A program made the position numbers and the translations under genes. The notes under the pieces were generated by a model. It saw only the letters and a program-made list of their open reading frames with translations, searched no databases and had not been told where the DNA came from. DNA of 64,000 nucleotides from positions 1 through 64,000 of the forward strand of contig NZ_SJSO01000024.1 of the NCBI RefSeq assembly GCF_004331735.1, written 5' to 3'. Shown piece by piece: positions 37,726 to 62,844 of the stretch (position 1 is the first letter of the stretch; each line of letters begins with the position of its first letter). Origin of the DNA: Pedobacter psychrodurus. GTDB lineage: Bacteria > Bacteroidota > Bacteroidia > Sphingobacteriales > Sphingobacteriaceae.

Positions 37726-37813
37726 ATCGATCGAAATTCTGCGTATTTTACACTAAGTGAAGAAATTTTTTGAAAATTTTAAGCTGAAAATGGTCCTGTG
37801 TTTAAGGGCTTTT

Positions 37814-44484: not shown

Positions 44485-44535
44485 AATTTGTGTGTGTATT
44501 GAAATCTGATTTATATTCTGGTTAGATTTAACGCT

Positions 44536-44580
44536 AGTTAAACGTTTTACTAAAGTATAAATATAATTTACTTTTTGCAA
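44536..44580 (-). promoter_or_regulatory. Promoter and operator of the DUF4965 gene
   Basis: The imperfect palindrome AGTTAAACGTTTTACT at 44536-44551 (central CG) overlaps a -7-like TACTTTAG (minus strand, 44557-44550). A TTG at 44578-44580 lies 20 bases further upstream as a possible -33 element. The start codon is 52 bases downstream. An operator on top of the core promoter suggests repression. Confidence 0.6.
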
Positions 44581-44628
44581 GGGATGGCGGTTTTTTAATT
44601 GTCTAAATGACATTTAAAATTAAACCTT

Positions 44629-44663
44629 CAAAAAAATACATGAAGTGATTAAGCTCCATGTAT
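44629..44663 (-). terminator. Terminator of the large locus D operon
   Basis: Minus strand ATACATGGAG and CTTCATGTAT pair over ten positions (one G-T), followed by seven T. It lies 32-66 bases past the stop codon at 44695 and separates the operon from the DUF4965 gene. Confidence 0.85.
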
Positions 44664-44694
44664 CTTTCAAATTGTGCATAACACCTATAATAAA

Positions 44695-45540
44695 CTAAGG
44701 TTGTTTTTTGTTGATTGTCCACTCGCCCAATTGAAACACGCGGCTTCCTCTGTTCGATTTGATGTAAAGGCGATAAAACTTATAAGCAACATAATTATCG
44801 AAGTGGAAAAGTTTAGTTTGTTTTCTACTCGGACCATCATTTGTATTCTCCCAAGGGCATACCGTAACCGTATGTAAATCGGTATACTGGATACCATCTA
44901 ACGAGCCCTGCAAAATCCAGAACCTTGGATCGCGGTCTGCGGCATCATTACCAGAGGTTAATGTATACGCGCCCACTATCTGTGGAGTATTTAGCTCGAA
45001 GGTACATTTTTGTGTACCATCGAAACCAGCTTGTAGGAATTTTGTATTTATATCCTGATCAACCAGTTTTTTGGAGCCTTCGCCAGAATCGGCACCTGCG
45101 CCAGCCTCCAGGTTAACTGAAAATTTACCACCAATGGTTTTCATGTAATTTTCGCCACAAATGGAGTAATTTATTGTCGGATCGACCACACTAAGCATCA
45201 CTTCTTTTGCTGCAGTATAACCCTGGCCATTTCTTGTAGTTAAGGTTACCTTATATTTTCCAGGGAAACGGTAAGTATGCTTTGGGTTTACCTCAACAGA
45301 GGTACTGTCATCGCCAAATTGCCACAATAAACCTTTATAATTTGTAGCGCTTCCGGTAAACTGGTACTCTAAAAATTTCAATGTATCGGGTTTTACAAAG
45401 GTAAAACCAGCCGTAGGCTTTGGTTCTTCCACCTCTGGAACAATCTCTACGGTTTCACTTTTTTTACATTTCACCATTAATACCACAATTAGTAGTAAAA
45501 GTGAGCATATACCCAATAATCTTTTCATATTACTTTTCAT
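44695..45540 (-). CDS. Lipoprotein with PKD and F5/8 type C domains (locus D)
   Basis: The 281-residue lipoprotein has a leader ending in MVKCKKSE (an ATG at 45528 is an equally possible start), a PKD domain (about 42-120, with LLWQFGDDSTSVEVNPKHTY and FPGKYKVTLT), and a C-terminal discoidin-like F5/8 type C domain (about 140-278, with DQDINTKFL, YTLTSGNDAADRDPRFW, LQGSLDGIQYTDLH, FQLGEWTI). Both are non-catalytic binding modules. The C-terminal domain is closely similar to that of the fasciclin protein at 57017. It is the last gene of the operon, so it is probably a surface glycan-binding protein. Confidence 0.85.
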   Translation of the reverse strand: MKSNMKRLLGICSLLLLIVVLMVKCKKSETVEIVPEVEEPKPTAGFTFVKPDTLKFLEYQFTGSATNYKGLLWQFGDDSTSVEVNPKHTYRFPGKYKVTLTTRNGQGYTAAKEVMLSVVDPTINYSICGENYMKTIGGKFSVNLEAGAGADSGEGSKKLVDQDINTKFLQAGFDGTQKCTFELNTPQIVGAYTLTSGNDAADRDPRFWILQGSLDGIQYTDLHTVTVCPWENTNDGPSRKQTKLFHFDNYVAYKFYRLYIKSNRGSRVFQLGEWTINKKQP

Positions 45541-45552
45541 ATCTATTCAAGT

Positions 45553-46995
45553 TTAAGGAGTTGGAAATAATTGTGTTCTTGGTACGGCACGTTTACCTGT
45601 TATACCTGCCGATGGAACTTCATATTCGAGATATGCTTGTTGCCCGCCAACATTTTCGCGGTGATGTGCTTCAATTTTATATCTGATACCACGTTCTAAA
45701 CGGATGGTTGCTTTTCGCTCTGGTTTATCCCACTGTGTGGTATAATCGTCGATGATGGCTTTTCCATTAATAAATAATCGCGATCCATCATCCCAACGGG
45801 TTTGATAGAAAACATAATCGCCCCTTACTGGTGCCAGGAACTCGCCAACCCATTTGGTAGCGAAATTATCTCTACTCAAAGAAGCGCCAGCAGTGTTTTT
45901 TACATTATCTGGCCAACCATCGCCCCCGAATTCGATTGTACCATCTACGCGGGTTGCAAAAGGCTCACGCCCGTCATCTGGTGCCAATTGTGTATTGGTG
46001 TAATATTTAGCAATTAAACCTGTTCCTTTTCCAATAATTGGCGAATTGTTATCCAGGTTTACATTGGGATCAATCACCACAATTACTTTTCCTTTTGTAG
46101 GATGGATAACATGGTTGGTATTATCGCTAAGGCTTAAGGCAAAAGCGAATTTTTTATTGGCCACAATGTTTGCATCGAACACAGGCCAAGGAATAGATAA
46201 CCTCACCGTGGCATTCGTCGCGCCTGTATTAAATCTCACCAAAGTATCGATGGTAAAATCTTTTGCAGCCAGGTGGATCACATTACTGAGTGTTCCTGCC
46301 GACAATAAAGTTGCAATGGTATCTATATTATCCTTAATTTTTACGTTAAAGGCTGTAGAAGGTGCATTATCTAAACTGATAATGAGTGGAATCGTAACCC
46401 CAGCAGGTCCAACCTGATAATTAGGTCCTTGAGTTACATTATAAATACCCCCACCCTCAAAATTTAAAAAATGGATGTCGGTAGATTTTAATAATTCTTC
46501 GGTATTGATGATGACCAGGATATTCGATTTACCATTGGCAATTTTATTGCCTTTACCCGGCGCTGAAAGTTTTAAGGCAAAAACCACTTTCTTACCAAAA
46601 TAACGCTCCAATACCGAGCGGCGAACAATGGCTATTCCTTCTGCATTATCTGTTCCGTACGATACATTAATTACGTTTGGATATTCTACAGCCGATGAGG
46701 GCATAAGTACAGCATTGGTTAAACCACCAGTATTAATTAATTGTGTTACGGTATCATTATTTAAGGTTAACCCTACCTGAAAAGCTTCTTCAGCTGCTCC
46801 TGAGAGCGAAATTTTGAAGGGAACTTTAACAAACTGGTTATCTATTGATACATTGCCCACAACAATTCCTTCGCCAGTAATACTTTTGCTTGCCGTAGGT
46901 GGTAGATCCAAATCGTCTATTTGAGATTCTTTACAAGAATAGGCAACAATCATGATTGTTAAGCCCATTAATACGGTGTATATAATTTTTTTCAT
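45553..46995 (-). CDS. PA14-domain lipoprotein with two N-terminal DUF1735-like domains (locus D)
   Basis: The 480-residue lipoprotein (IVAYSCKESQ) contains two similar beta-rich segments (about 40-170 and 175-315), each with a pattern like VPFKISLSGAAEEAFQVGL...VVFALKLS, resembling DUF1735 or Calx-like repeats. A PA14 domain follows (about 325-465, GLIAKYYTNTQL, FLAPVRGDYVFYQTRWDDGSRLFINGKAIID). PA14 domains bind carbohydrate in many enzymes and adhesins. No catalytic domain is seen. It is probably exposed on the cell surface as part of the locus D set. Confidence 0.82.
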   Translation of the reverse strand: MKKIIYTVLMGLTIMIVAYSCKESQIDDLDLPPTASKSITGEGIVVGNVSIDNQFVKVPFKISLSGAAEEAFQVGLTLNNDTVTQLINTGGLTNAVLMPSSAVEYPNVINVSYGTDNAEGIAIVRRSVLERYFGKKVVFALKLSAPGKGNKIANGKSNILVIINTEELLKSTDIHFLNFEGGGIYNVTQGPNYQVGPAGVTIPLIISLDNAPSTAFNVKIKDNIDTIATLLSAGTLSNVIHLAAKDFTIDTLVRFNTGATNATVRLSIPWPVFDANIVANKKFAFALSLSDNTNHVIHPTKGKVIVVIDPNVNLDNNSPIIGKGTGLIAKYYTNTQLAPDDGREPFATRVDGTIEFGGDGWPDNVKNTAGASLSRDNFATKWVGEFLAPVRGDYVFYQTRWDDGSRLFINGKAIIDDYTTQWDKPERKATIRLERGIRYKIEAHHRENVGGQQAYLEYEVPSAGITGKRAVPRTQLFPTP

Positions 46996-47025
46996 TTTCG
47001 ATATTTAAATTATCAATATTCTTGT

Positions 47026-48729
47026 TTATTGGTCTAACCAAACCCTACCATCAAGGGCCCATTGCTGGTTATTGGCAATTTTTAGCCAGTTAACCATTTG
47101 CGCTGGTATATCTGCTGTTTGGGGAACCAAAAGCGCTAAAGAGCTGGTTGAAGGTGGACAGATTAAATCGTTAAAATTTTCCCAAACGTATGGTCCCTGT
47201 AATTTAAAATCGCGGGCCTGTGAAGAAAGATCGATCATCTTATCGCCATTGCCATCGGTAGCTGGCCAGTAACCTACCAAAAAGTTGTAAGAAGGATGAC
47301 TTTGATCGATGGATGTTTCGCAAGAATATTGCTCAATTACACCATCTGGTACAGCTAGTTTAAAGAAACGGATATCAGTTACATAATAATCAGGCTCTCC
47401 ATGCCCCTGGCCATTTAAATAACCCAGTTTCAGTGCGTTTGCATTGGCTAAAGAACCCGATCCGGTGATTTCTAACTCGTTGTTAAATTTTCCGTTGGTA
47501 TAGGTGCGGATAAACCTTTGGTTACCGCGTTGTTCTAATTTAACCGAAAGATTTTCCCATCTGCCCTGAACAATATCTGCGCCTCTACATTGACGATAAT
47601 CGCCATCTTTTGTGCCTCTCCATTCGAAATACCAATAACGGTCTTCTAAATAAATAACCCAACCCACACCTGGGTGCCCGCTAGACCACTCGTTTCTTTT
47701 ACCCAAAATACTAGGGTATGAGATCTGCTCTCTGTTCTTTTTAACTTTAAGCTCGATGGTCATTTTAGTGGTATCGTCTATATTGTAAACAGTTGCATCT
47801 TCACTGGCCACTTCTGCCCTAATGGCTGTACCGGTCATTTTTACGGTTTTGCCCAAATACCTGTTACCGGTAAAAGGCTTTACCAGAATCCGTTTATTAT
47901 AAGCATCGCTATAGTAAATGATAAAAGCATTGTTTGCCGGTTTACTAAAAATGGTTTGATCATCGGTATTGGGCGGAAGTGTAAATGCACCGCCATCGCT
48001 CGAAGCGATAATAACCAGCCAATCTTCGTTAACATAATTAGGCCGTTTTTTTAATGCAGCCATAATCTCACCCACTCCAGTATCAAATTTTTCTATTGCC
48101 AATTTATAGTTCGGGGATGAATTGTCGTAACCATATTGGACACCAGCTTTATCCACATCGGTAAAATGGCCTAAAATTACTGAGGCCGTATCGGTGTTTA
48201 AATCGTTAATTACCGCAGCTTTAACCAGATCATCGCTGCTTACCAAAGTGCTGATATCTGCACCTGTTGTTAATGATTTAAAAACGGTAGATGAGGTATG
48301 TGCCACAATTTTGGTCTGCGGCCTGCTCTCTTTAATTCTTTTGAATATTACAGGGTAATTCTGCAGGTTGTTATTGGTCAGGTTATCATCATTTACCAGG
48401 TGTTTCGCCTTTTTCACCCCAGTTAACATGCTTGCCCAGTTACTGGCATTCTGCGTGGCATCGGGTTCGTTTAAGCTTACCCAGCTGTAAACTGAATGTG
48501 GTAAAAGCGCCGTAATATTTGGGATATTAGCAGCTGCTACCGATTGTCCCCTTGCTCCATCAACAACCAAGTATAAAATCTTACGACTTCCGTACCTTAC
48601 TTTTGTGGTATCGGTACCGTCTTTATCTATAAGTTTTCTATCGAAATCTTTATTGCAGGAAAATATGGCTGTTGTAATTACTGTGGCCATTAAACCCAGC
48701 AGTAATTTATATTTTTTCGTCATGCTCAT
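47026..48729 (-). CDS. DUF4983-like lipoprotein: alkaline-phosphatase-fold domain plus LamG-like domain
   Basis: The 567-residue lipoprotein (TTAIFSCNKDFD) opens with a type I phosphodiesterase / alkaline-phosphatase-fold region (about 45-290: ILYLVVDGARGQS, ASNWASMLTGV, LGHFTDVDKAGVQYGY, WLVIIASSDGG). The metal-binding residues of active relatives look changed: the usual Asp-His pair before Gly-Gly reads Ser-Asp, and the second His of the DxxxH motif is Val. A concanavalin-like part (about 320-460, YWYFEWRGTKDG, GRWENLSVKLEQ) and a C-terminal DUF4983-type region follow. It may have become a binding protein. The family name is from memory. Confidence 0.75.
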   Translation of the reverse strand: MSMTKKYKLLLGLMATVITTAIFSCNKDFDRKLIDKDGTDTTKVRYGSRKILYLVVDGARGQSVAAANIPNITALLPHSVYSWVSLNEPDATQNASNWASMLTGVKKAKHLVNDDNLTNNNLQNYPVIFKRIKESRPQTKIVAHTSSTVFKSLTTGADISTLVSSDDLVKAAVINDLNTDTASVILGHFTDVDKAGVQYGYDNSSPNYKLAIEKFDTGVGEIMAALKKRPNYVNEDWLVIIASSDGGAFTLPPNTDDQTIFSKPANNAFIIYYSDAYNKRILVKPFTGNRYLGKTVKMTGTAIRAEVASEDATVYNIDDTTKMTIELKVKKNREQISYPSILGKRNEWSSGHPGVGWVIYLEDRYWYFEWRGTKDGDYRQCRGADIVQGRWENLSVKLEQRGNQRFIRTYTNGKFNNELEITGSGSLANANALKLGYLNGQGHGEPDYYVTDIRFFKLAVPDGVIEQYSCETSIDQSHPSYNFLVGYWPATDGNGDKMIDLSSQARDFKLQGPYVWENFNDLICPPSTSSLALLVPQTADIPAQMVNWLKIANNQQWALDGRVWLDQ

Positions 48730-48759
48730 CTTAATTTATATTTAATTGGCTTCTGGTTA

Positions 48760-50379
48760 TTATTCGATAGTTACCCTAACGATGTTATAGAAAGGTTGGT
48801 TATCAAAGCGGCTAAAACCTCCGATTAATAACAGTGCTTTTTTGCCATCTGCAGATTTCGTTTCAATCACATCAGAAAGGCCTCCTGAAAATGGTCCGGT
48901 AGCATTATATCCAGGGGCAAGCAACCCTGCTGGTGTAAGCACCATAAAACCGTTTCTGGTTACGTTATTATACTTTTTAAAACCACCACTTACTACGATT
49001 AATCCTCCCGAAATCTGGCGAGCAAAATAAGGGTAGCCGCCTTCAAAGAATTTAGCAGTAAAAGATTCATCCAGGCTGCCATCTTCATTAATTAGTGCCA
49101 TCCCATTTACCGGTTTACCGTTGTATTTTGTAAAGGCGCCCGTAATCAAGTATTTCCTGGTGGTAGCATTATAGGTAAGTGATGTTATTCCATTATCTAC
49201 GCCACTACCCGGGTTAAAGCTTGCATCTTTAGTGCCATTGGCATTTAACCTTAAAATACGTACTGCTGGTTGATCATCGAAGGTGCTGAAGTTTCCAAAT
49301 ACCATCAATTTTTCGAGGTTGGCTGCATCGGTATGCATATAGGTATCAATAGGGCCATTTGCACTCACATTACCTTTATTGGTTGCGGTATTAAAACGAT
49401 AGGTCTTATCTAATGAACCATCTAAATTGAACCTTAAAATCTGGCGGATTTCGGTACTATCCAGAATTACGGTATCTCTGCTAAAGTCGTAATTGTCTTT
49501 ATCGTAAGTTCTTTTTACGTAATACCTAAAGTTACCCGTGGCTAAAATTTTGCCTTGATGTGGGTAAATTCGATTAATGTATTCGTTGGTACCGCCGTTA
49601 AATTTAGGGAACCATTTTTGGGTAACCGTATCGGTTAAGGTTGGTTTACGCTTGGTTTGGATTTTAATGGTATCAATAGCCCCGTTTGGATACAAACTGG
49701 TTATATTACTGATATTTTCTGAACGCTGATTATAACCGCTAAATCCACCGGCGATGATAAAACGGCCACCAATTTCTATTACTCTTGATAGCGAGCCATT
49801 TGCGCCTCTACCCGTTCTAAAAGTACGGTCGTAATCGCCATCTAAAGAGGTTCTGGCAATTCTATTAATTGGTGTGATTAACCCTTTATTATCGTAGTTA
49901 TTAAAACCACCAAGTACAAGTGCCCTTCCATCAAGCATTTCGTAAAACTGACTTACGTAGCCATTTGTGCCGGCTGTTGCCTTAAAAGTGATATCGTTTT
50001 TGATCAGACCTGACACAATAAACTGCGGACCTAAAATCAACTGATCGCCAATAGCGATTGAGGTGATTCCAGTACTTCCGGCTTCTGGAACCTTAACCAC
50101 AATAGTAGATTCGGTAACGCTAAGCACTTCTGCTTTTTCGCCGTTAAACATAAACGTTAACTTATCTTTAAAGGGCAGTAAACCTTTTACCTGTACGGTT
50201 ACGGTGGTACCTACAATCCCTTCTGATGGAACAGGCAATAAAGTTTGGCTAATGGTTATACCCAGTGGTGCTTTACCATCTGCATATGGATCTGCGCCCA
50301 ATTCTTCTTCTTGCTTACATCCCTGTATAACTAAGGAGCATAGAAAAAATACGATTAGCATGTATTTTATTTTTTTCAT
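48760..50379 (-). CDS. IPT/TIG plus beta-propeller lipoprotein, DUF5008-like (locus D)
   Basis: The 539-residue lipoprotein (LVIQGCKQEEE) has an IPT/TIG-like Ig domain (about 40-120) and then several repeats of the type GGFxxYxxxxxxxI.RL..DGSLDxxF, as in the DUF5122 (delta-60) beta-propeller: ALVLGGFNNYDNK, FIIAGGFSGYNQR, LMVFGNFSTFDDQ, YLITGAFTKYNGK, LIVVSGGFKKYNN, LLLIGGFSRFDNQ. Such propellers offer a binding face. The name DUF5008 is recalled, not checked. It is tightly packed in the operon and has no visible catalytic site. Confidence 0.8.
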   Translation of the reverse strand: MKKIKYMLIVFFLCSLVIQGCKQEEELGADPYADGKAPLGITISQTLLPVPSEGIVGTTVTVQVKGLLPFKDKLTFMFNGEKAEVLSVTESTIVVKVPEAGSTGITSIAIGDQLILGPQFIVSGLIKNDITFKATAGTNGYVSQFYEMLDGRALVLGGFNNYDNKGLITPINRIARTSLDGDYDRTFRTGRGANGSLSRVIEIGGRFIIAGGFSGYNQRSENISNITSLYPNGAIDTIKIQTKRKPTLTDTVTQKWFPKFNGGTNEYINRIYPHQGKILATGNFRYYVKRTYDKDNYDFSRDTVILDSTEIRQILRFNLDGSLDKTYRFNTATNKGNVSANGPIDTYMHTDAANLEKLMVFGNFSTFDDQPAVRILRLNANGTKDASFNPGSGVDNGITSLTYNATTRKYLITGAFTKYNGKPVNGMALINEDGSLDESFTAKFFEGGYPYFARQISGGLIVVSGGFKKYNNVTRNGFMVLTPAGLLAPGYNATGPFSGGLSDVIETKSADGKKALLLIGGFSRFDNQPFYNIVRVTIE

Positions 50380-50410
50380 GATTCTATTCTTTTAAATTAT
50401 AACAGGCTAA

Positions 50411-51160: not shown

Positions 51161-51184
51161 ATCTTGTATAATTTCTATTTAAAA

Positions 51185-52708
51185 TTAATTACCACCATTA
51201 ACCCAATAATCGTTTAACCGCATAAATGGATTGTTATTTAAAGCATTTCCGCTTATTGGCCAGGTCCACGCGCCACGACTAAATTTATCTGACGTGAGTA
51301 CGTTGTACGACCATTGGCTGCTTAAAATTCTCTTGGTGCGCACCAAATCGAAATAATGGTGTCCTTCCCCTATTAATTCTCTAGATCTTTCGTAAAAAAT
51401 AAAATCCTTTAATGTAGAGCCTCCGCCACCAGCATATTTCGATGCCTGTGCTCTATCTCTTATCATATTTACCAGCTTAATGGCTTCGGTATCTTCTCCT
51501 AAATTGGCAAGCGCTTCTGCCGCCAGTAAAATTTCGCCACCATACCTAAAAATCATAAACGTATTATCAGGGTTGGCATCTTCTTCACCTGTAGAGAAAG
51601 AATTCTGCGCAAATTTTAACATCATAAATTTCCCGTTATCGGCAAAAATATCTTCGTTAAACCAGGTCGTAATTCTCTTATCGCTACCATCCAGAAAAAT
51701 TTTCTGCATATACTCACCTCTGAAATAGGCAAAACTTACACGGTGGGTATATTCTGGTCTTTTATATGGATAATGCAAAAACATATCGGCAACCGGCGCT
51801 GTATTGGTATTTTGATCGCCATAGTTTATACTGCGGTAAAATTCGAATAAGCTCTCGTCTGATCTTCCTTTAATTACAGTAGCCCATTCTGTAATCGGCA
51901 ATAATCTGTATGCGCCGCTGGCAATCATTTCGCGTCCCAAATCGGCAGTTTCCTGGTAGTACTTTTTCGAATTGTTCGCATCAAAACCTGCATTCCACAT
52001 GTTCATTTCCATAATTAAGGCAATAATGCTTCCGCGGCTGGCCCTAACACCTTTTAAAGATGGATCGGTATAGGTCCAGGGAATTTGATTTTTATAGGTT
52101 TTAAGATCAGCTATACATTTGTTTAATACTGAAACAAAGTTTTCGCGTGGCAAAGCTGTAGAATGGAAGGCATCGGTATAATACACTACATCGCCATATA
52201 ACCTTACCATGATAAAATAGCTTAGCGAACGGATAAACGCAGCTTCGGCTTTATACTGATTTTTCTGTAAATCGGATAATCCGGGCACACCTTCGTCCAG
52301 CTTCGCAATTAAAATGTTGGCGCCTTGTATGGCACGATAATAATCGGTCCAATCGGTAATTCTGTTGAAGTTGTAAAAATCCCATGGACGACCGCCTGCC
52401 AATAAACCTAAGAGGTTGTTTTTACCCAAAATTTCAACAAACTCGCGGGCTGGGGCTAAATCAGACTGGCTTTCGTATAATACTTCGCCAGAGCGGTACT
52501 CGCCTGTTGCTCCTATAAAATGCGTTTCGTTAAACTTACCGAAAACAATACGCGATAAATCGTAAATATTTGCTTCTACATCTTCTTTAGATTGAAAGAA
52601 GTTATTTCCTGATAACTTATCTAAAGGTTGGATATCCAGAAACTTTTTACAAGCAGGCAATGAAAACGATGCTGCTAAAATCAAAGAATAAATGATAAAC
52701 TTTTTCAT
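51185..52708 (-). CDS. RagB/SusD family lipoprotein (locus D, second set)
   Basis: The 507-residue lipoprotein (FSLPACKKFLDIQPLDKLSG) has the SusD N-terminal helices (NQYKAEAAFIRSLSYFIMVRLYGDVVYY near 150-175) and C-terminal half (RYGGEILLAAEALANLGED, MIRDRAQASKY, YERSRELIGEGHHYFDLVRTKRI). It partners the SusC at 52720, which ends 11 bases before it. Ligand unknown. Confidence 0.93.
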   Translation of the reverse strand: MKKFIIYSLILAASFSLPACKKFLDIQPLDKLSGNNFFQSKEDVEANIYDLSRIVFGKFNETHFIGATGEYRSGEVLYESQSDLAPAREFVEILGKNNLLGLLAGGRPWDFYNFNRITDWTDYYRAIQGANILIAKLDEGVPGLSDLQKNQYKAEAAFIRSLSYFIMVRLYGDVVYYTDAFHSTALPRENFVSVLNKCIADLKTYKNQIPWTYTDPSLKGVRASRGSIIALIMEMNMWNAGFDANNSKKYYQETADLGREMIASGAYRLLPITEWATVIKGRSDESLFEFYRSINYGDQNTNTAPVADMFLHYPYKRPEYTHRVSFAYFRGEYMQKIFLDGSDKRITTWFNEDIFADNGKFMMLKFAQNSFSTGEEDANPDNTFMIFRYGGEILLAAEALANLGEDTEAIKLVNMIRDRAQASKYAGGGGSTLKDFIFYERSRELIGEGHHYFDLVRTKRILSSQWSYNVLTSDKFSRGAWTWPISGNALNNNPFMRLNDYWVNGGN

Positions 52709-52719
52709 AATAATATCTA

Positions 52720-55700
52720 TTAATTGCCTGTATTAAGTTCTAACTGTACACCAAGGTTATAAGTACGCGGAACAGGATATCCTGTAGAAATATCGCGCCC
52801 CAATGTGGTTACGTTTTCAGGATTTGGCCCGGTGTACTTAGAGAAAGTAATTAAGTTATCTGTAGAGGCATATACTCTTAAACTGCTCATTCCGAAACGG
52901 GCGATAAACTTTTTATCGAACATGTAGGAAAGAGTTACATTACTTACTTTTAAATAGGTTCCGCTTTCTTGCCAAAGTGTTTGATCGGCCCTTAGTGGTT
53001 GAATCTGATCAAATCTTTTGTAATCATACGGATAAGGGTATTTTGCAACATCACCAGGTTTCGTCCAGATATTAAGGTCGTTTAATGGCACCACCGATTG
53101 TAGTGAATAAGGATCGCGCATAATGGCTATTCTATCGGCCAGGGCATTATTCAAAATAGTTCTGTCGGCCGTATAAGTAGCATAAACATTTAAGCCCCAT
53201 TTTTTATACCTGATGTTGGTAGAAAGACCGCCCGTAATTAAAGGCTGAGAATTACCCGTAACTTCATAATCGCGGCCATCTAAAATATAATCTCCGTTTA
53301 CGTCTTTCATCATCGGATCACCGCCTAAGAAAAACTGTCCGTTAGATTGATACCTCTTACCCGTTACAGGGTCGGTTGGCACATCGGCATCGGTTTGATA
53401 AACGCCCTGGTTTATCCTTAAGTAGTTAGACAGTGTGTTTCTACCTACCCGGTAAACGTTGTGCTGCAGGTAACCAGAACCATCAAATTTAATGAACTGC
53501 CCATTATACTCTGCCGGAAGTTTTAACAGCACATCGCGGTTAAGTGCACCATTTACCGAAACAGAAACATCAAAATCCTTGCTCGCTATTGGTCTCACGG
53601 TAATCATGATCTCCGATCCATAATTGGCAATACCTAAATCGTTACTCGCCAGTTTATTAAATCCGGTAGTATTCGATAAAAGCCTATCGAATAACAAATT
53701 ATCAACCTTTTTAAAATAAGTATCGAAGTTTACCGAGATTTTATCGTTAAATAACCCCAAATCGAAACCTAAATTGTACTGGCTTGTTGTGGTTGGTTTT
53801 AAGTTAGGGTTTGGAATAATATTATAATCGATTCCAATGGTTGGGTTGTTGTTAAAGTTATTGTTCAGGTTATAAATACCATAAATACTTTGGAGATTAC
53901 CTGTTGGTACAATATTTTGCCCCCAGGTTAACCTCAAGCTACCATACGATAACCATTTCATATCGGCCAGCCAGTTCTCTTTGTTAAAATTCCATCTTAA
54001 ACCAATGGAAGGGTTTTTAGAATATGGATTTTCCAATCCACTGGATGAGGTACCATCTAAACGGTAAGAAAATTCGGCTACATATTTTTTATCATAATCG
54101 TACGATACTGAACCTGCGAACGATGCGATGGTTGCGTTTCTGTAGTTAGACAATACACCTCCACCACGCGAGTAATAGGCATCGTAACCTAATGGTCCCT
54201 GTAACTGATCGTTAGGTGTTCTTTCCTGGCGGGTAACACCAGCCTGGGCACCTTGTTTGTAAATTTCGTTAAAGGTATTTACGAAAAGACTGTGTTTTTC
54301 GCCAAAGGTTTTGGCGTAGGTAATCCCATTTCTATTGTACAACTGGAAATTTCTGCCTACATAATCGTATACTTTAGCAAACTGGCCATTTGCCGCCGCT
54401 GGCGTAAAGGTAGATTCGGTATCGGAAGTATAATCGTAACTTAAAGTAGAAGATACGGCCAAACCAGGAATAAACTCGTAACGTGCTTCTACGTTAGTTC
54501 TTAAGTTTCTGGAGTTGTTATCGTTTAATGTTTGTAATGCCGATAAAACCCCTCCCGATGCCTGATAGAAAGATGGTGGTGGCAATAAGGTAGATACCTG
54601 ACCGTTTGCAGCTACACCCGATTGTAATAAACCAACACCATTTCCTTTATTCTGCTTTCCTACCGAGCCGTTAATAAAACCAAAAAATCTAAACTTATCG
54701 TTTGGCTTAAACTCCATATTCATGTTGAGGTTGTAACGGTTATAGCCTGTGTTTTTTATTACTCCTTTTTCGGTGTAATAACCTAGATTGGCTTTATAGT
54801 TAAACCTAGGATCGCCACCATCTAAAGCCAGGTTATGACTTTGGTTATAGGTATTTTGGAAAAATACATCCTGCCAATCGGTAGAGTTGTTCCAGTATGC
54901 GTTTAAACTATCGGCAAGGAATGAAGTATTAGAAATTCTCCTGATATCATCAACATTGGACGCATTTAAAATAATCTGCTGGATTTTTAATGATCTTTCC
55001 GAATTACCGCCCAAAGTTTCGCGAAGTTTTGGTGGGGTTTTAACAAAGAAATTGGATACATATCTAATCCTTGGCACTTTAGAGTTACCTCTTTTGGTCG
55101 TGATAATAATTACCCCGTATGCCCCTCGCGAACCATACATGGAGGTTGCTTGCGCATCTTTTAAAATCTGGATGTTTTCGATATCTTCCTGAGGGATTAA
55201 TGAAAGTGGACTCACACCCGGCCCTTGACTCTGAAAACCAAACTCCGCAGCTTTATCTGCATCTAACGGAACGCCATCAATTATATACAATGGTGAAGTT
55301 GGCTGTAAAAATGATTCGTTACCACTGCCCGAGATACTTAAACTTGATAATCCACGAACCTGCACCGAACCCCTAAAACCTGGCGCACCGGTATTGTTCT
55401 GAATGTTTAATCCTGGCACTTTACCCTGTAAAAGTTGCTCTACGTTAGAAACCGGTATATCCTGAACCTCTTTTGCCTGAATTAAAACTGATGATCCTGT
55501 AGTGGTTTGTTTAGACCTTTTCTGGTAAGCCACAATAACAATCTGATCCAGCTCTTTGCGGTCTTCAGAAATGGTTACAGTGATGTTATTTTGATTGGTA
55601 ATTTTTACACGCTGTGTATTGTAACCAATAAATTTGAATATTAAGGTAGAACCCTCGGGTACGTTAACTGAAAATTTTCCGCTGCCGTTGGTTTGGGTTA

Positions 55701-55869
55701 AACCTTTATTGGTGCTCTCTAAAATAATAGATACACCCGGAACACCTTGTTTTGTTTCTTTATCAACAACGGTACCATTCACAAGGTTAAATTTCTCCTG
55801 CGAAAAAGCACTGGTGCCAAGCATTATACACACCACAAGTAATGTATAAAAAAGTATATTTCTTTTCAT
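52720..55869 (-). CDS. SusC/RagA family TonB-linked protein (locus D, second set)
   Basis: The 1049-residue protein has a signal peptide ending near SAFSQ, a carboxypeptidase-regulatory-like domain (about 30-110, VNGTVVDKETKQGVPGVSI), a plug with DAQATSMYGSRGAYGVIIITTKRG and a barrel ending in YNLGVQLELNTGN. The C-terminus has a short tail past the usual aromatic end. It lies in the middle of the operon, 21 bases after the DUF5007-like gene. Confidence 0.94.
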   Translation of the reverse strand: MKRNILFYTLLVVCIMLGTSAFSQEKFNLVNGTVVDKETKQGVPGVSIILESTNKGLTQTNGSGKFSVNVPEGSTLIFKFIGYNTQRVKITNQNNITVTISEDRKELDQIVIVAYQKRSKQTTTGSSVLIQAKEVQDIPVSNVEQLLQGKVPGLNIQNNTGAPGFRGSVQVRGLSSLSISGSGNESFLQPTSPLYIIDGVPLDADKAAEFGFQSQGPGVSPLSLIPQEDIENIQILKDAQATSMYGSRGAYGVIIITTKRGNSKVPRIRYVSNFFVKTPPKLRETLGGNSERSLKIQQIILNASNVDDIRRISNTSFLADSLNAYWNNSTDWQDVFFQNTYNQSHNLALDGGDPRFNYKANLGYYTEKGVIKNTGYNRYNLNMNMEFKPNDKFRFFGFINGSVGKQNKGNGVGLLQSGVAANGQVSTLLPPPSFYQASGGVLSALQTLNDNNSRNLRTNVEARYEFIPGLAVSSTLSYDYTSDTESTFTPAAANGQFAKVYDYVGRNFQLYNRNGITYAKTFGEKHSLFVNTFNEIYKQGAQAGVTRQERTPNDQLQGPLGYDAYYSRGGGVLSNYRNATIASFAGSVSYDYDKKYVAEFSYRLDGTSSSGLENPYSKNPSIGLRWNFNKENWLADMKWLSYGSLRLTWGQNIVPTGNLQSIYGIYNLNNNFNNNPTIGIDYNIIPNPNLKPTTTSQYNLGFDLGLFNDKISVNFDTYFKKVDNLLFDRLLSNTTGFNKLASNDLGIANYGSEIMITVRPIASKDFDVSVSVNGALNRDVLLKLPAEYNGQFIKFDGSGYLQHNVYRVGRNTLSNYLRINQGVYQTDADVPTDPVTGKRYQSNGQFFLGGDPMMKDVNGDYILDGRDYEVTGNSQPLITGGLSTNIRYKKWGLNVYATYTADRTILNNALADRIAIMRDPYSLQSVVPLNDLNIWTKPGDVAKYPYPYDYKRFDQIQPLRADQTLWQESGTYLKVSNVTLSYMFDKKFIARFGMSSLRVYASTDNLITFSKYTGPNPENVTTLGRDISTGYPVPRTYNLGVQLELNTGN

Positions 55870-55890
55870 AATATTAGCTTTAAATATTGC

Positions 55891-56979
55891 CTATTCGCTG
55901 ATAAATTTTGGATTATCTGTTTTGAAGTGAAATACAATTTCCCAATCTCCAGCCTGGTAAATGGCAAAATCGACCCCGAAGTTGGCAATGATACGCCCAC
56001 CACCAAAAGAGCCTCTGGAGTAACTCAACTGTGCCTTTGCTCTCGAGCCTCCTGGCGCGTAAAAGGTTGGAATTTCTACCAATGGAATTGGATAGGCTAC
56101 ATCGTACTGCACATACTTATCCGTTTTCTGCATGTTAAAACCATGTATCATTTTATCCCAAACGGTTTCGTTAAAAGACGATGGATTAATTTCAACCCCA
56201 TCTTTATTTAATACTTTAATGCGGAGCGAATGTCCATTCCCACCTGTAAACGGACGGATATATACCACTACATCTTTTTGATCGTTGTTACTGATCAGAT
56301 TTTTGTTGCTTGTAGCGCCAATTACATTGTTTAGGTATGGACGGATGTAATCTCTCAGATTTTTATCTAAAGGAAATTTAGGATCGGGAGCAGGCAAACC
56401 GGTGTAAGCATTAAAATCGTTAGAAGGTTCGTAAGGTCTTTCTCTAAAAGGTCTGATCTGTAAATCTCTGATCAAACGTTCTCCACCGGTATTTTTAATC
56501 TTCACATCAAAAAAGCGGGTATCCTGAGAGAAGTTTGTACTATCAATTGGTCTTGGTTTGATTAACTGGTTGGTAGATGAGCCCCAAAGTATAAACTCTC
56601 CTGAAGAACGTACCTCAAACAAAGGGTGCACTTCTATCTTTCTTTTAGCCTCTATTTCTGCCAGGCTTTTTTCTAACCCGGTATATGGAGCAATGAACAC
56701 GTAAGTGGGTACTTTCTGAAAAATATCGGTAACCGGTTTACCATCGCCAAAGCGTGCATTTACAATTTCGAAGGTAATAGGCTGGGTAGAATTATCGCCA
56801 TTAAAACCTCCCATTAGGTTGGTTCTGCCAATAATCGGTTCAAATACTTTATTACTAAAGTTTACATTATTACTCAGGTAATCTTTTTCTTCAGGCAGAT
56901 CGTATAGTTTTTTGCATCCGCTAAAAGCAATTAATGCAAACAAAACCACAACCATTTCTATTTTTACGATTGACTTCAT
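55891..56979 (-). CDS. DUF5007-like surface lipoprotein (locus D)
   Basis: The start is set at the ATG at 56979 (MKSIVKIEMVVVLFALIAFSGC), giving 362 residues with a clear lipobox; the open frame upstream begins with GTG and would add a charged stretch before the leader. The mature part (YLSNNVNFSNKVFEPIIGRTN, later ITFEIVNARFGDGKPVTDIF) matches the plan of the protein at 4141-5202. It sits right after a fasciclin protein, as in locus A, so the two pairs are paralogous. No catalytic residues are recognised; a binding role is inferred. Confidence 0.72.
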   Translation of the reverse strand: MKSIVKIEMVVVLFALIAFSGCKKLYDLPEEKDYLSNNVNFSNKVFEPIIGRTNLMGGFNGDNSTQPITFEIVNARFGDGKPVTDIFQKVPTYVFIAPYTGLEKSLAEIEAKRKIEVHPLFEVRSSGEFILWGSSTNQLIKPRPIDSTNFSQDTRFFDVKIKNTGGERLIRDLQIRPFRERPYEPSNDFNAYTGLPAPDPKFPLDKNLRDYIRPYLNNVIGATSNKNLISNNDQKDVVVYIRPFTGGNGHSLRIKVLNKDGVEINPSSFNETVWDKMIHGFNMQKTDKYVQYDVAYPIPLVEIPTFYAPGGSRAKAQLSYSRGSFGGGRIIANFGVDFAIYQAGDWEIVFHFKTDNPKFISE

Positions 56980-57016
56980 AAGTTTCGTTATTTTATTTTT
57001 TCTATGTCCCATCACC

Positions 57017-58126: not shown

Positions 58127-58137
58127 ATCAATATTAT

Positions 58138-59652
58138 TTAGCGCCAGTAAGGGTTCTGAGTTAATAAACTGTTTTGAGAGATCAGCCTGCGCGATATTGG
58201 CCAGTAGATCCCGCCCGAATTGATGAGGTTCATAAACTTGGCATCGTTCTGTTTAATTTTATTGTATCTAATTAAGTCGTACCACCTATGGCCTTCTCCC
58301 AATAGTTCGCGGTGTCTTTCTTCGAATATAATTTTGATAATATCATCTTTACTGAAATCGAATTTTATTTCAGTATCAACAGGTAAACGCCTGCTCATTA
58401 CCTGCTTCAACTCATCAGTCGCTCCTTGCTGATCACCTAAAACGGATAGTGCTTCGGCCCTTAACAATACAATATCTTCTAACCGGGTAAAGATTAAGGC
58501 ACTGGTAAAATACCTGAAGTTTGGATCGGTACCGCCGCCCTGAATAACCTTTATTTTACTGAATATTGGATATTTACCATTTAAATTGATGAAATACCTG
58601 TCGAATTTCGATTGGCCCAACGTATCAATTGAGAATCTTTCGTCTTTCGCCAGATTGAAATATTTTAAGATCGAATCTTTTGGCAGATAGATATCAGGAA
58701 CCGATTTGGTAATAACTGGCTCTGCAAGGGTCAATTCTTCAATATGCCCGGTTGATGAACCATCGATATGCCCATAATCTGAATTAAAACCAAACATTTG
58801 TCGGGTATTTTTATTGTAGAAAAACCCGTTTGAGTTGCTTAAATCGGTAGTTGAGGTAAAACCACCACCGCTTCGGCCATAGTTATCTTCAACAAATTTG
58901 GTGTATTTGGCAACACTGGCATAATCTGCATTCCAGGCGGCAACGTGCGATAGTACTGCGTAAGCCGTAACTTTAGTAGCCAAAGCGCCTCCCCATCTTC
59001 CTCCATTTTCATTATAATAATCGCCCGGCTGCTGAATATCGTTTCCACTATAAATAAATGGCAGATCGGCCGCGGCCCTTAACATTTCAGATTCCACCCA
59101 GGCTAAAACCTTAGCTTGTTTTTCTCTGGGTTTATTTTCGAAAGCTCCTTCGTTTGAAGAGATGATAAAAGGAATATCGCCCCAGATACGTACCATGTAG
59201 AAATAAGCAAACGCCCTTAAAAACCTGGCTTGGGCAATATCTACCGTCATGTTATTATCCGAGTAGCGTTTATCCGTTGCTTTAACGTGTGCAATATTTT
59301 CCAGAAAAACATTAGCACCATTAACAATGGCATAAAACCGGGTCCAATCAGAAAGCGATTCTACCACAGGATAAGATGCATTTAAATTGTTGCTGATAAC
59401 CGCTTTTAAATCCTGTCTTTTCGGACTTGTAAATTCGCCTGGTCTTACATCGCCATAAATCCAGTGGCTGTTGTTGTCAGAAAGTGCAGCTCTGGTTAAC
59501 GCATAAACCCCCAGAATTCCGGCGCGGGCATCCTCTACCGTATTCCACATATTTTTTTCGCCTACCACCCTACTCGAGTCGGTTTCTAATGCTTTATTAC
59601 AGCTGGTTAAAGCCATTACAGCAAGCAGAAATGCGTATAATATATTTTTCAT
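58138..59652 (-). CDS. RagB/SusD family lipoprotein (locus D, first set)
   Basis: The start is set at 59652 (MKNILYAFLLAVMALTSC), which gives 504 residues and a proper lipoprotein leader. SusD marks are ARFLRAFAYFYMVRIWGDIPFI near 145-170, RLEDIVLLRAEALSVLGDQ, and ERHRELLGEGHRWYDLIRYNKI. It is the partner of the atypical SusC at 59687, whose stop codon lies 34 bases upstream. Confidence 0.93.
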   Translation of the reverse strand: MKNILYAFLLAVMALTSCNKALETDSSRVVGEKNMWNTVEDARAGILGVYALTRAALSDNNSHWIYGDVRPGEFTSPKRQDLKAVISNNLNASYPVVESLSDWTRFYAIVNGANVFLENIAHVKATDKRYSDNNMTVDIAQARFLRAFAYFYMVRIWGDIPFIISSNEGAFENKPREKQAKVLAWVESEMLRAAADLPFIYSGNDIQQPGDYYNENGGRWGGALATKVTAYAVLSHVAAWNADYASVAKYTKFVEDNYGRSGGGFTSTTDLSNSNGFFYNKNTRQMFGFNSDYGHIDGSSTGHIEELTLAEPVITKSVPDIYLPKDSILKYFNLAKDERFSIDTLGQSKFDRYFINLNGKYPIFSKIKVIQGGGTDPNFRYFTSALIFTRLEDIVLLRAEALSVLGDQQGATDELKQVMSRRLPVDTEIKFDFSKDDIIKIIFEERHRELLGEGHRWYDLIRYNKIKQNDAKFMNLINSGGIYWPISRRLISQNSLLTQNPYWR

Positions 59653-59686
59653 CGTTATTGATGTATTTTTAGTAGCTATTTCCATA

Positions 59687-62600
59687 TTATAATTCCATTT
59701 TAACTCCTAAAGTGTATGTTCTTGGTATGGGTTGACCATAGCCGGTATCGATGCCGTCATAGCTTACCAATTCCGGATCTTGCCCAGTATATGGCGTGAT
59801 GACAAATACATTGCTTACCGTACCGTAAACAAAGAATTTATTAATCTTTATATTTCTCTTTTTCAACAGGTTACCTAGCTCATAACCTACTGATACCGAT
59901 CTTAATTTCAAGAATGAGGCATTTTCTAAGAAAAGATCCTGATCTAAACGGTAAGGAATAACGGTACTCCAAGGATTGTATAGCGGATATTTGCTATAAT
60001 CGCCACGTTTTTCCCAAAAAGTAATTTCTTTCACCGAGCTTACATCGGTATTACCTTCGCGGTTAACAAAATCAAAACGGCTAGCCATTTCCTGGTTAAT
60101 CAGCTTCCTGCCCAGATTGAAGTATAAATTGGTGCTCAGGCTCCAGTTGCCATAGGTAAAAGCGTTATCAAAACCACCCGAAAGCGTTGGCAATGAGTGC
60201 CCTTTTAATACTTTGTCTTTTTCATCAATTACATTATCTCCATTTTGGTCTTTCCATCTCGGATCGCCGGCTTTTAATGCCTGTCCATTATACTTTAATG
60301 GCTGACCATTTACTTCCGGAACTTGTGCAGTAGAAGTATAGATGCCCTCATTTTCTAACAACCAATATTGATCTACCGGTTCTCCAACTCTTAATAACCT
60401 GTTTCCGATTATAATTTCATTTAAGCCTCTTGGCAGTGCTTTTAAGGTGTTGCTATTGTGGTTAAAATTCAATGAAGAATTCCATGAGAATTTATTTTTA
60501 GCCATTACCAATGCGTGGATGGATAAATCCACGCCTGTATTGCTCACATCCATGCCGCTTTCTATTGATTGTTTGTAACCATATTCTGCATACGATGGAA
60601 TACCGATCAACTGGTTTTGATCAGCCTTGGTGTAAAAATCGACTGAAACATGCAGGCGGTTTTTTAGCATGGCTACATCAGCCCCGATATTTAACTGATC
60701 TGAATAGGCCCATGGCACGCCATAACCCACCCAGCCAAACGAATATGGCCTGGTAAGTACACCGAAGGCATTGTATCCCGGCACGGTTAAATTGCCTGTG
60801 TAACCAACTGAAGCGGTATATTGCGGCCCCTGGGCATAATTATCGTAGGTAAACGTTCTGCCTAAACGGCCAACGCTTGCCCTTAAAACTAAATCATCAA
60901 CCAATCTGGTATCCTTTAACCATTCGTTTTTAACATTCCATGCTGCAGCGATTACCGGAGAATAAAACCAGCGTTTGGTTGGTTGTGCGTTAGATGATCC
61001 ATCTAAACGTAATGTTCCGGATACGAAATACTTATCATTATACGAATAGTTTACTTTACCATAAAATGATAACAGGTTATCTGCTGTTTTATCTAAAAAG
61101 CGATAGGTAAGTTCTCTGGGAAATGCTTTTGGTACCAGGTAATTAGGATTATCACCCCCGTTTGGTAATTTTGGATCAGAATCCAATAAGTTAATTTTAA
61201 TATAATCATTGGCACCTTTATACGCATAAGCATAGTTGTACTTATAAATATCCCACATCATCGATTGGCCTAGCTCTACATGGAAATCATGTGCGGTATT
61301 AAGCTTGAAATCGTAAGATGCTTTATTATCAATCATTAACCGTTGGTTAAAGCCATAATAGTTTGAGGCATAGCTATTGCCCTGCAATAAGGTTCTGGCA
61401 TAAAATATATCCCTGTAACCTTCATTATAATCTACATTAAAAGCCGATGATAATTTAACCTTGCCCAGTGTAGCCACTAATTTGGCATACCCCTGGATCA
61501 GGTTGGTTTTATTATCATCAAAACCTTTGCTGTATTCATTTAAATAACTGGCATAATAATCTTTATTGGGCGCAGGTGGCGCACTCAAATCAGGAAAGTA
61601 ATTAATCTGTGCAAACCTATCTCTAAGTGTTCTGTTTCTATCACGGTTTAATCGGTTACCGTTAATCATGGCAGAAAAAAGCAACCATTTAACCGGACGC
61701 ATGTTGATATTGAACATGGCGCTGTAACGGTCTAAACCCGTACCATCGGCAACACTCTGACTTTTTGCATTACCTAACGAAAATCTAAAATTCGCACGGT
61801 CTGACCCACCTGTCAGGCCAAAATTTATACCGTATATCAATGCGTTTTTATAATATAAATCGGTCCAGTTAGATTTACCACTGTATACATTATTAAGCGA
61901 ATCGCTTAAATAAACAGGATATTCTTCATCATCAGAATACCTGCCATTGGTTGTATAAATATCATAGAACCTTTGTCTGAATTCATTTTCATATTTACCA
62001 TTAATGGTATTAACCGTTGGCTTTTGCACCATACCGATATATGAATTAAAGCTAATACTCCTCGAATTGCCCGAAGCCGCTTTTGAGGTTAACACAATAA
62101 CACCGTTTACTCCCCTGGGGCCATAAATGGATGATCCTGCCAAATCACTCAATACCTCTACAGATGCAATGTTATTGATATCGATTCCGGCAAGAAGGTT
62201 AGTTGCCGGACCAATTCTGTTAAAATCGTACTGTTGAATATCGAAGGCAAATGGATGCTCTCCGATTAAGGGAATTCCATCCAATACCACTAATGGCTGT
62301 ACGGCATATAAATCCTTTTTTGACAGTAGTGGCATAGCTGCACCCCTAATGATCATATTCTGGATAGAGCCAGGTTCGCCAGATGGTTCTTGTACATATA
62401 AGCCCGCATAATTTCCTTTTAGGTTTTGCTGTAAGGAAATAGCAGGAAACAGAGAAAGATCTTTAACATCTTTCCGCACACCTCCAGACAATTTATTGTA
62501 AATTGTTTTGAGTTTAATTTGTTCCAAGCTGTCTTTCCTTAAAGAGTCTTTTGGCGATACATACTTAATTTTAGTTGTATCCTGCAGAACAAAAAGATTG

Positions 62601-62701
62601 GTAGTTAGGCCTTTATGAAGTTTTTTGCCCGCCGAAAAAACAGGTAAAACGTTTAATGTAAACGCGGCAAAAAAAACAAGGCACGCCCATAAGTATCGCA
62701 T
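59687..62701 (-). CDS. Atypical SusC-like TonB-linked protein without regulatory N-terminal domain (locus D, first set)
   Basis: The 1004-residue protein has a signal peptide (about 1-24). A charged stretch (YVSPKDSLRKDSLEQIKLKTIY, about 48-70) leads directly to a plug (about 85-215, with LVVLDGIPLIGEHP and SSIYGPRGVNGVIVLTSK) and a barrel ending in YTLGVKMEL. The carboxypeptidase-regulatory-like domain found in the other SusC proteins here, and the usual TonB-box text before the plug, are not visible. The YG-PRGVNG hallmark is slightly changed. It is the first gene of the locus D operon, under two AACGTT-type operators. Confidence 0.88.
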   Translation of the reverse strand: MRYLWACLVFFAAFTLNVLPVFSAGKKLHKGLTTNLFVLQDTTKIKYVSPKDSLRKDSLEQIKLKTIYNKLSGGVRKDVKDLSLFPAISLQQNLKGNYAGLYVQEPSGEPGSIQNMIIRGAAMPLLSKKDLYAVQPLVVLDGIPLIGEHPFAFDIQQYDFNRIGPATNLLAGIDINNIASVEVLSDLAGSSIYGPRGVNGVIVLTSKAASGNSRSISFNSYIGMVQKPTVNTINGKYENEFRQRFYDIYTTNGRYSDDEEYPVYLSDSLNNVYSGKSNWTDLYYKNALIYGINFGLTGGSDRANFRFSLGNAKSQSVADGTGLDRYSAMFNINMRPVKWLLFSAMINGNRLNRDRNRTLRDRFAQINYFPDLSAPPAPNKDYYASYLNEYSKGFDDNKTNLIQGYAKLVATLGKVKLSSAFNVDYNEGYRDIFYARTLLQGNSYASNYYGFNQRLMIDNKASYDFKLNTAHDFHVELGQSMMWDIYKYNYAYAYKGANDYIKINLLDSDPKLPNGGDNPNYLVPKAFPRELTYRFLDKTADNLLSFYGKVNYSYNDKYFVSGTLRLDGSSNAQPTKRWFYSPVIAAAWNVKNEWLKDTRLVDDLVLRASVGRLGRTFTYDNYAQGPQYTASVGYTGNLTVPGYNAFGVLTRPYSFGWVGYGVPWAYSDQLNIGADVAMLKNRLHVSVDFYTKADQNQLIGIPSYAEYGYKQSIESGMDVSNTGVDLSIHALVMAKNKFSWNSSLNFNHNSNTLKALPRGLNEIIIGNRLLRVGEPVDQYWLLENEGIYTSTAQVPEVNGQPLKYNGQALKAGDPRWKDQNGDNVIDEKDKVLKGHSLPTLSGGFDNAFTYGNWSLSTNLYFNLGRKLINQEMASRFDFVNREGNTDVSSVKEITFWEKRGDYSKYPLYNPWSTVIPYRLDQDLFLENASFLKLRSVSVGYELGNLLKKRNIKINKFFVYGTVSNVFVITPYTGQDPELVSYDGIDTGYGQPIPRTYTLGVKMEL

Positions 62702-62844
62702 AGTTAATGGATCTTTAATTGGTAAAAAAAATGATTTCTAAAACTTATTTTTTCGGAAACGGCATGATATGTCCTAGGTTAAAAAGACAGGTACTTCGGT
62801 AGTAATAGTTAGGGGTTCTCATAAAATTTAGTATTTGGTTAATT

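Follow-up and report, generated by a model that had tools for sequence, protein, structure and literature searches.

Gene content of the operon

The DNA analysed here is a stretch of 64,000 nucleotides from Pedobacter psychrodurus (contig NZ_SJSO01000024.1, positions 1 to 64,000), referred to below as the window, and the system in question is a minus-strand operon of eleven open reading frames (ORFs) that encodes two SusC/SusD pairs and seven further lipoproteins. The ORFs span 18,007 bases (44695-62701), exactly where a preliminary description of this DNA had placed them, and are separated by gaps of 1, 11, 1, 21, 11, 24, 31, 30, 30 and 12 bases; the tight packing given in that description was confirmed, and its estimate of gaps of about 10 to 35 bases is corrected to a range of 1 to 31. 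In the order of transcription the genes and the terminator are:

59687-62701, minus strand: SusC1, TonB-dependent receptor without N-terminal extension (NTE); Pfam Plug only, TIGR04056 at 443.8 bits
58138-59685, minus strand: SusD1 lipoprotein (Pfam); best match in the PDB 3hdx, 450 bits
57017-58126, minus strand: fasciclin (FAS1) and F5/8C lipoprotein (Pfam); F5/8C at 24.1 bits against a cut-off of 28.2
55891-57015, minus strand: DUF5007 lipoprotein (Pfam, 209 bits), GTG start as called
52720-55869, minus strand: SusC2 with NTE (CarbopepD_reg_2, Plug and barrel)
51185-52708, minus strand: SusD2 lipoprotein (Pfam); best PDB match 3iv0, 316 bits
50411-51160, minus strand: second FAS-like lipoprotein; Pfam 14.5 bits against a cut-off of 22, and family profile
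48760-50379, minus strand: DUF5008/TIG and DUF5122 beta-propeller lipoprotein (Pfam)
47026-48729, minus strand: gene 9, probable pseudo-phosphodiesterase with alkaline-phosphatase-superfamily fold, LamG insert and DUF4983 (domains, alignment and model)
45553-46995, minus strand: gene 10, BT_3987-like_N and PA14 lipoprotein, probable surface glycan-binding protein (SGBP); BT_3987-like_N at 24.8 bits against a cut-off of 25.9
44695-45540, minus strand: gene 11, PKD and F5/8C lipoprotein, probable SGBP (domain search)
44631-44668, minus strand: terminator hairpin of 15 pairs with an 8-base loop, its 3' arm running into seven U

Three of these domain calls lie below the Pfam cut-off, namely the F5/8C domain of gene 3, the second FAS domain and the BT_3987-like_N domain of gene 10 (for which we take DUF1735 to be the older name), and the family profile of the second FAS protein also scores 75-79 bits on likely first FAS genes of two other loci. 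A lipoprotein-type Cys at residue 18-34 behind a hydrophobic stretch was present in all nine non-SusC products, so that the earlier account of two SusC/SusD pairs and seven further lipoproteins holds apart from details of the domains. The operon has the adjacent susC and susD genes within one unit by which a polysaccharide utilisation locus (PUL) of the SusC/SusD kind is recognised; no carbohydrate-active enzyme was found inside it when its eleven proteins were searched, and Pfam and family-model searches recognised no glycosidase or lyase domain among them. The clear terminator reported earlier was likewise present, with the region 44620-44672 folding at -15.4 kcal/mol (z -4.07); it was found by folding and was not listed by a consensus scan of the window. 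From this arrangement we favour the reading that the eleven genes form one transcription unit, as part of the joint explanation developed below.

Structure modelling of the DUF5007 protein (predicted local distance difference test, pLDDT, 89.9) gave no Foldseek match under 0.001, and its N-terminal domain, the only part really compared, resembled the SusE-like BT4661 with a Z of 9.0 (2.2 Å, 93 residues), which is barely over noise level. PDB sequence searches with the DUF5007, propeller and neighbouring GtaA-family proteins returned no useful relative. A literature search found no paper on DUF4983 and only a passing mention of DUF5007; for fasciclin with SusD or polysaccharide utilization the word occurred in a reference list only, and the rows returned for SusC with fasciclin were unrelated.

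The phosphodiesterase-like protein of gene 9

The preliminary description had held that the operon is without any glycosidase and had named the finding of a known hydrolase or lyase domain as its refutation. In this formal sense it fails, because gene 9 holds PF01663 (type I phosphodiesterase) at 51.3 bits against a cut-off of 23. Its picture of a large surface capture and import operon without glycosidase or lyase domains stands, and only the wording on enzymes has to be given up, as the active site of gene 9 looks erased. The gene 9 family profile aligns to the nucleotide pyrophosphatase/phosphodiesterase (NPP) of Xac, and a profile search of the PDB gave NPPs and sulfatases; the single sequence searched against the PDB found no relative. 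An AlphaFold2 model of gene 9 (pLDDT 90.5) superposed on Xac NPP with a Z of 26.2 (2.9 Å over 247 residues, model residues 47 to 567), which indicates that gene 9 is predicted to have the NPP fold. As the LamG-like domain falls inside the matched range 47-567, DUF4983 probably makes up the C-terminal portion of this phosphatase-type fold. Foldseek matches of gene 9 to a toxin, PAPP-A and pentraxin were attributed to the LamG-type domain and given no meaning for function.

Six alignment columns were compared in 53 proteins (that of the window included), representing the catalytic Asp, the nucleophile and the metal ligands reachable by the NPP alignment, with the third histidine lying outside it. 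D57 was kept in all 53 proteins, D193 in 17, H245 in 15 and D244 in one, and neither the nucleophile column nor H197 was kept in any, so that none of the 53 retains more than three of the six positions. A small shift of the alignment would not restore a conserved nucleophile, since no column from 90 to 100 has Ser or Thr in more than 26 of the 53 proteins. Judged by alignment, gene 9 lacks the NPP set of nucleophile and metal Asp/His residues and its active site seems lost, and we rejected it as an active hydrolase because nucleophile and metal histidine are missing in 53/53. Gene 9 therefore shares fold and PF01663 with Xac NPP and other type I phosphodiesterases, but differs from them by mostly lost nucleophile and metal ligands and by the inserted LamG-like domain.

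A conserved module with two branches

All eleven genes were present in the same order in the eight orthologous loci read, which argues that the operon order is more than chance (genomes, contigs and loci are given below by our handles G, C and L). Frame breaks interrupt the first FAS gene in two of these loci (L048 of G057 and L054 of G041), and SusD1 as well in G041, the loci being otherwise intact. The GtaA-family gene comes next after the operon in seven of the eight, the exception being G038. Two sister loci within the P. psychrodurus genome (C4 and C13) carry the same first nine genes, and this core (SusC1-SusD1-FAS-DUF5007-SusC2-SusD2-FAS-DUF5008-phosphodiesterase) was collinear in 39 of 40 sampled loci of the window's family. 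The 40 loci come from 38 genomes and are not random, being picks of full-length DUF5007 matches spread over genera, with matches of about 110 positions left out. The exception, L143, shows no first phosphodiesterase; a core gene is in pieces in L141 and L148, and one core gene each was seen by six-frame search only in L141 and L152, the contig of the latter ending within gene 9. DUF5007 was found in 128 of 301 genomes of the family, the P. psychrodurus genome counted. The check on gene order in relatives that had been proposed earlier thus revealed a conserved module and not an isolated arrangement, and the survey together with the orthologous loci rules out an operon peculiar to this genome.

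Beyond the core the family loci differ in their tails. An M60 gene and a second phosphodiesterase follow in 19 of the 40 loci (L126-L140, L142, L143, L146 and L147), a PA14 and/or PKD-F5/8C tail as in the window follows in 18 (L145, L148-L151 and L153-L165), two have neither tail (L141 and L144) and in one the tail is cut off (L152). In a midpoint-rooted SusC2 tree of 51 rows the PA14/PKD loci, the two tail-less loci and L152 formed one group (Shimodaira-Hasegawa-like approximate likelihood ratio test, SH-aLRT, 100) inside the M60 loci. By gene content and tree, the window operon is one branch of a conserved module. The HExxH motif of M60 is intact in 17 of the 19 M60-branch loci and in both sister loci of the P. 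psychrodurus genome, and one M60-branch locus carries two tandem M60 genes (L128:15307-18266), each with HExxH.

DUF5007 was rare in wider samples, occurring in 4 of 296 genomes of a phylum draw and 6 of 395 of a class draw (own genome included, all but one from the window's family), so the Bacteroides copies of the module were reached through a PDB sequence. SusD1 and SusD2 match 3hdx (450 bits) and 3iv0 (316 bits) far above all other chains, and we take these to be BT0269 and BT0273. Eight records were retrieved with the 3iv0 chain as query; six were annotated (L118 and L121-L125) and two were left out (L119 and L120). One of the six, L121, is a short fragment of 4.5 kb that carries three genes of the core. 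The other five, all outside the family, hold the nine-gene core followed by an M60-like and a second phosphodiesterase-like gene:

L118: Bacteroides faecis
L122: Dysgonamonadaceae metagenome-assembled genome
L123: B. finegoldii
L124: B. acidifaciens
L125: Sunxiuqinia

HExxH is absent from these five records and from L126 and L127 within the family, and by this motif the M60-like proteins concerned are a second retired enzyme of the module.

The counterpart in B. thetaiotaomicron (B. theta) starts with BT0268, described as the SusC of an arabinogalactan PUL (PMC5061871, PMC6874557), and this matching PUL is reported to be induced by arabinogalactan (PMC6874557) and to be controlled by a hybrid two-component system (HTCS). 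The annotation of BT0269-75 and BT0277-79 fits the core order, from which the gene-by-gene assignment would follow (PMC10434189), and literature on BT0265/BT0290 and BT0272-BT0278 added nothing on function. The core order that the window operon shares with this PUL (PUL5, BT0268 onward) was read in B. faecis and other relatives and not in B. theta itself. The Bacteroides copies go on with the M60-like and second phosphodiesterase-like proteins, whereas in the window the core is followed by PA14 and PKD-F5/8C genes and the operators are of the LacI type, so that the operon shares the nine-gene core order of the BT0268-type module without its tail. The arabinogalactan PUL of B. theta contains glycosidases.

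Within the core the two SusC proteins are not equivalent. An NTE model (Pfam 13715) built from SusC2 hit SusC2 in all 40 loci and all five other SusC proteins of the P. psychrodurus genome that were tested, but SusC1 in none of the 40, and SusC1 of the window, which also lacks the NTE, fits the plug and the SusC/RagA family model. When the NTE domain was deleted from the levan SusC of B. theta, growth on levan could not be detected at 24 h in the experiment described, whose authors state that SusC proteins possess an NTE domain (PMC7782687). Because levan SusCD is a dimer (PMC7782687), a mixed SusC1-SusC2 dimer is possible by analogy. We put forward only tentatively the further idea that the two SusC/SusD pairs constitute one obligate asymmetric transporter, in which SusC1 would work solely as the partner of full-length SusC2 beneath a roof of retired-enzyme lipoproteins (the phosphodiesterase and, in Bacteroides, also the M60 protein without HExxH). 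If true, large glycoproteins would be handled by a complex that has two transporters built in and is conserved across several Bacteroidota families.

Operators, proposed enzymes in trans and the likely ligand

Upstream of SusC1, and next to the operon, the following features were identified:

62845-62852, minus strand: promoter box TATATTTG, 151 bp before the SusC1 start, beginning 24 nt after the first base of the proximal operator
62858-62876, no strand assigned: promoter-proximal operator TTATTAAAACGTTTTAGTA (pattern search)
63079-63097, no strand assigned: distal operator TTACTAAAACGTTTAAGTA, 221 bp from the proximal operator
44535-44553, no strand assigned: operator TTAGTAAAACGTTTAACTA upstream of the GtaA-family gene (pattern search)
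42010-44484, minus strand: GtaA-family protein (DUF4964, DUF5127 and GtaA six-hairpin), a separate unit with the same operator type

SusC1 is preceded by two copies of the operator pattern TTANTAAAACGTTTWANTA (62858 and 63079) and the GtaA-family gene by one (44535); the start of the latter gene, given the ortholog lengths, is probably 44484 and not 44613. TAnnTTTG is the promoter box consensus of the Bacteroidota type, and the 260 bp ahead of each of the eleven starts hold only two such boxes in all, the second being 195 bp before gene 10 within the coding sequence of gene 9. With SusC1 starts verified in the upstream stretches of 20 relatives, the proximal operator was found 23-25 nt ahead of TAnnTTTG (at most two mismatches) in 21/21 genomes with a LacI at least 84% identical (the window and the 20 relatives), and the distal operator 219-221 bp off in 19/21; in genomes whose LacI was 57-65% identical, or that had none at the cut-off used, the site was present in one of eight (G038). 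A LacI gene within the window itself (37814-38827) was rejected as controller of the operon, because a palindrome unlike the operators, TTTCGGGAACGTTCCCGAAA, lies between that gene and a maltose-type SusCD/SusE/GH13 PUL, in two copies 44 bp apart (37661-37682 and 37705-37726).

Over the whole P. psychrodurus genome the pattern gave 49 hits on both strands at up to two mismatches in comparison to 26 for the reversed pattern (one site may count twice), and in five relatives 50 hits at up to one mismatch in comparison to 9. Ten distinct sites of the own genome have at most one mismatch and all were inspected, seven of them lying outside the window. Three sites on C15 surround genes for LacI, GtaA, glycoside hydrolase (GH) family GH92, ROK and SusC/SusD proteins, the LacI-family repressor gene being G000:C15 (L105:16311-17315); one site on C56 precedes a third GH92 gene, with a separate two-mismatch site before a GH97 gene, and a site on C21 precedes a GH127 gene. 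Three GH92 genes are thereby tied to operators, one directly behind a site and two as presumed members of units behind one. The C15 GH92/GtaA cluster also has a gene for a basic-secretory-protein-type (BSP-type) peptidase (PF04450; L105:9056-10036) behind an operator. Operators adjoin LacI, GtaA, GH92 and ROK genes in G071, G057 and G041, and LacI and GtaA genes in G081, where the stretch read showed no recognisable GH92 or ROK. GH127 genes follow additional sites in G071 and G047, as do a GH92-like and a GH97-like gene in G081. A conserved palindrome at promoters and a linked regulator gene, as expected of a LacI-family regulon, were both found.

The genomic neighbourhood of the two branches was also compared, without regard to operators. 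Neighbours of the GH92, GtaA or LacI plus ROK types with about 41% identity or more to the regulon proteins occurred at five of the 18 PA14/PKD-branch loci (L145, L155, L160, L163 and L164, from five genera) and at none of the 19 M60-branch loci, one of which has GH92 at 30% and three LacI at 29-34%. This count was made per locus because several flank hits of the PA14/PKD branch came from one locus. The underlying Pfam tallies covered 91 proteins for the M60 branch and 106 for the PA14/PKD branch with the first 25 families listed; proteins below 230 aa, far from the locus or matching module profiles were left out, as were six near-duplicate or short M60-branch stretches and one protein of 1649 aa. 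Among the 25 commonest families in the M60-branch flanks were GH2 (four of the 91 proteins), GH29 (four) and GH35 (two).

The co-control of the operon with the DUF4965 (GtaA-family) protein proposed earlier is borne out by the shared operators, and the family is itself proposed to be a glycosidase, one member showing weak beta-galactosidase activity in the report concerned, in which glutaminase activity was not found (PMC9668830). The companion claim, that no enzyme of the locus degrades the ligand, is right in so far as no operon enzyme looks competent by sequence, but it overlooked the enzymes that share operators in trans (two GtaA, three GH92 and others). These enzymes appear to be supplied in trans.

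Two side observations concern RNA or short ORFs in the window. A leader ORF of 25 codons (MRTPNYYYRST..., 62745-62822, minus strand) starts 121 nt before SusC1, and ORFs beginning with MR, mostly of similar sequence, lie 120-122 nt ahead of SusC1 in six orthologs (G071, G034, G057, G047, G081 and G041). Flavo-1 RNA (Rfam RF01705) occurs three times above the gathering score (1710-1867, 20025-20143 and 20256-20348).

The gene order, the branch-specific tail, the catalytic loss seen in the gene 9 alignment, SusC1 without NTE, the operators at the promoter and the like operators beside glycosidase genes elsewhere are, in our judgement, best explained by a complex that captures and imports the ligand through two non-equivalent SusC/SusD transporters and feeds co-regulated glycosidases encoded in trans. 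We consider this account probable, with an alpha-mannose-bearing glycan or glycopeptide as the likeliest ligand. The FAS, DUF5007, propeller, dead phosphodiesterase, PA14 and F5/8C proteins would bind the ligand and join the barrels as a utilisome, and the imported oligosaccharide or glycopeptide would be cut in the periplasm by the enzymes in trans. The LacI-family repressor from C15 may hold the operon and the GtaA, GH92, GH97 and GH127 genes off, possibly by looping the stretch of about 220 bp that separates the two operators, until repression is lifted by a sugar that the co-regulated enzymes release. GH92 enzymes are alpha-mannosidases, and the mannose-bearing ligand is favoured on this ground, because GtaA is a proposed glycosidase and because the sister branch has an M60 gene. 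The glycoconjugate guessed in the preliminary description is a reasonable one for the last of these reasons, as the M60 family carried by the sister loci includes an O-glycopeptidase member (PMC11992087).

Two kinds of known systems are close to such a complex. Levan and dextran utilisomes of B. theta are described as SusCD with further surface lipoproteins in one complex, in which one SusCD, one SGBP and a glycoside hydrolase make up four outer-membrane components (PMC7618045); the complex predicted for the window operon would have two SusCD types, seven further lipoproteins and no enzyme that looks competent by sequence. The mucin O-glycoprotein PUL BT4240-50 is reported to comprise SusCD, an SGBP with DUF1735 and CBM32 and an M60-like peptidase, and the cargo proposed for it consists of glycopeptides (PMC11992087). 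Its likeness to the window operon lies in the DUF1735-like start of gene 10 and the F5/8C domain of gene 11, but the operon has no M60 gene and differs by its two SusCD pairs and its FAS, DUF5007, propeller and phosphodiesterase-like proteins.

Several observations weigh against the proposed import complex and its regulon. The function of the operon, its ligand and LacI binding are predictions, and the link between LacI identity and operator tracks relatedness, which makes it support and not proof. G014, with a LacI of 65% identity, has no site in the 392 bases before SusC1, yet a site adjoins its LacI gene. Since the operator is missing from the sister loci on C4 and C13, the regulon does not extend to the entire module. 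The 12-base core of the operator is no commoner in the window than chance (11 seen at up to two mismatches, 12.4 expected), and the case therefore rests on the longer pattern, the positions and the conservation. Sites on C8 and C14 have no recognised partner, those in L269, L272, L274 and L278 have none in the small comparison set, and inspection covered a part of the two-mismatch sites in the P. psychrodurus genome and of the sites in the five relatives. GH92 occurs in many other PULs too, and mannose alone may not describe the ligand because the regulon also contains GH97 and GH127. The residue alignment of gene 9 to NPP is weak near the nucleophile (3.5 bits for that stretch).

The main rival for the ligand is import of arabinogalactan or arabinogalactan-protein as in the B. 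theta counterpart, with the link to GH92 and GtaA being incidental. It draws on the reported induction of the matching PUL by arabinogalactan (PMC6874557), on the weak beta-galactosidase activity described for a GtaA-family relative (PMC9668830), on the GH2, GH29 and GH35 proteins flanking the M60 branch and on the GH127 gene of the regulon; we regard it as unlikely because the window lies in the other branch, with different tail proteins and neighbours, and because its operators are common to GH92 genes. Import of peptides or glycopeptides for their amino acids, as in RagAB, with sugars being secondary, would suit the intact HExxH in 17/19 loci of the sister branch and the BSP-type peptidase gene of the C15 cluster, but the window branch has no M60 gene and most other identified regulon genes encode glycosidases, GtaA or ROK kinase, so that this reading too seems doubtful. 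That gene 9 has remained an enzyme by rebuilding its active site, giving the operon a hydrolase after all, is very improbable despite the PF01663 match and the universal D57, since by the same alignment, weak as it is near the nucleophile, neither a nucleophile Thr/Ser nor the first metal histidine is kept in any of the 53 proteins.

In summary, import loci of the SusC/SusD kind are usually read through their enzymes, and the window operon holds none that looks competent. The core keeps its order from family to family although the tail is exchanged, so selection seems to act on the machinery of capture and transport itself. The paired unequal SusC/SusD proteins with their retired-enzyme lipoproteins offer a target for structure work and give DUF4983 and DUF5007 a context. 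A conserved operator can tie an enzyme-less locus to glycosidases encoded in trans, which would aid ligand prediction for other loci without enzymes.

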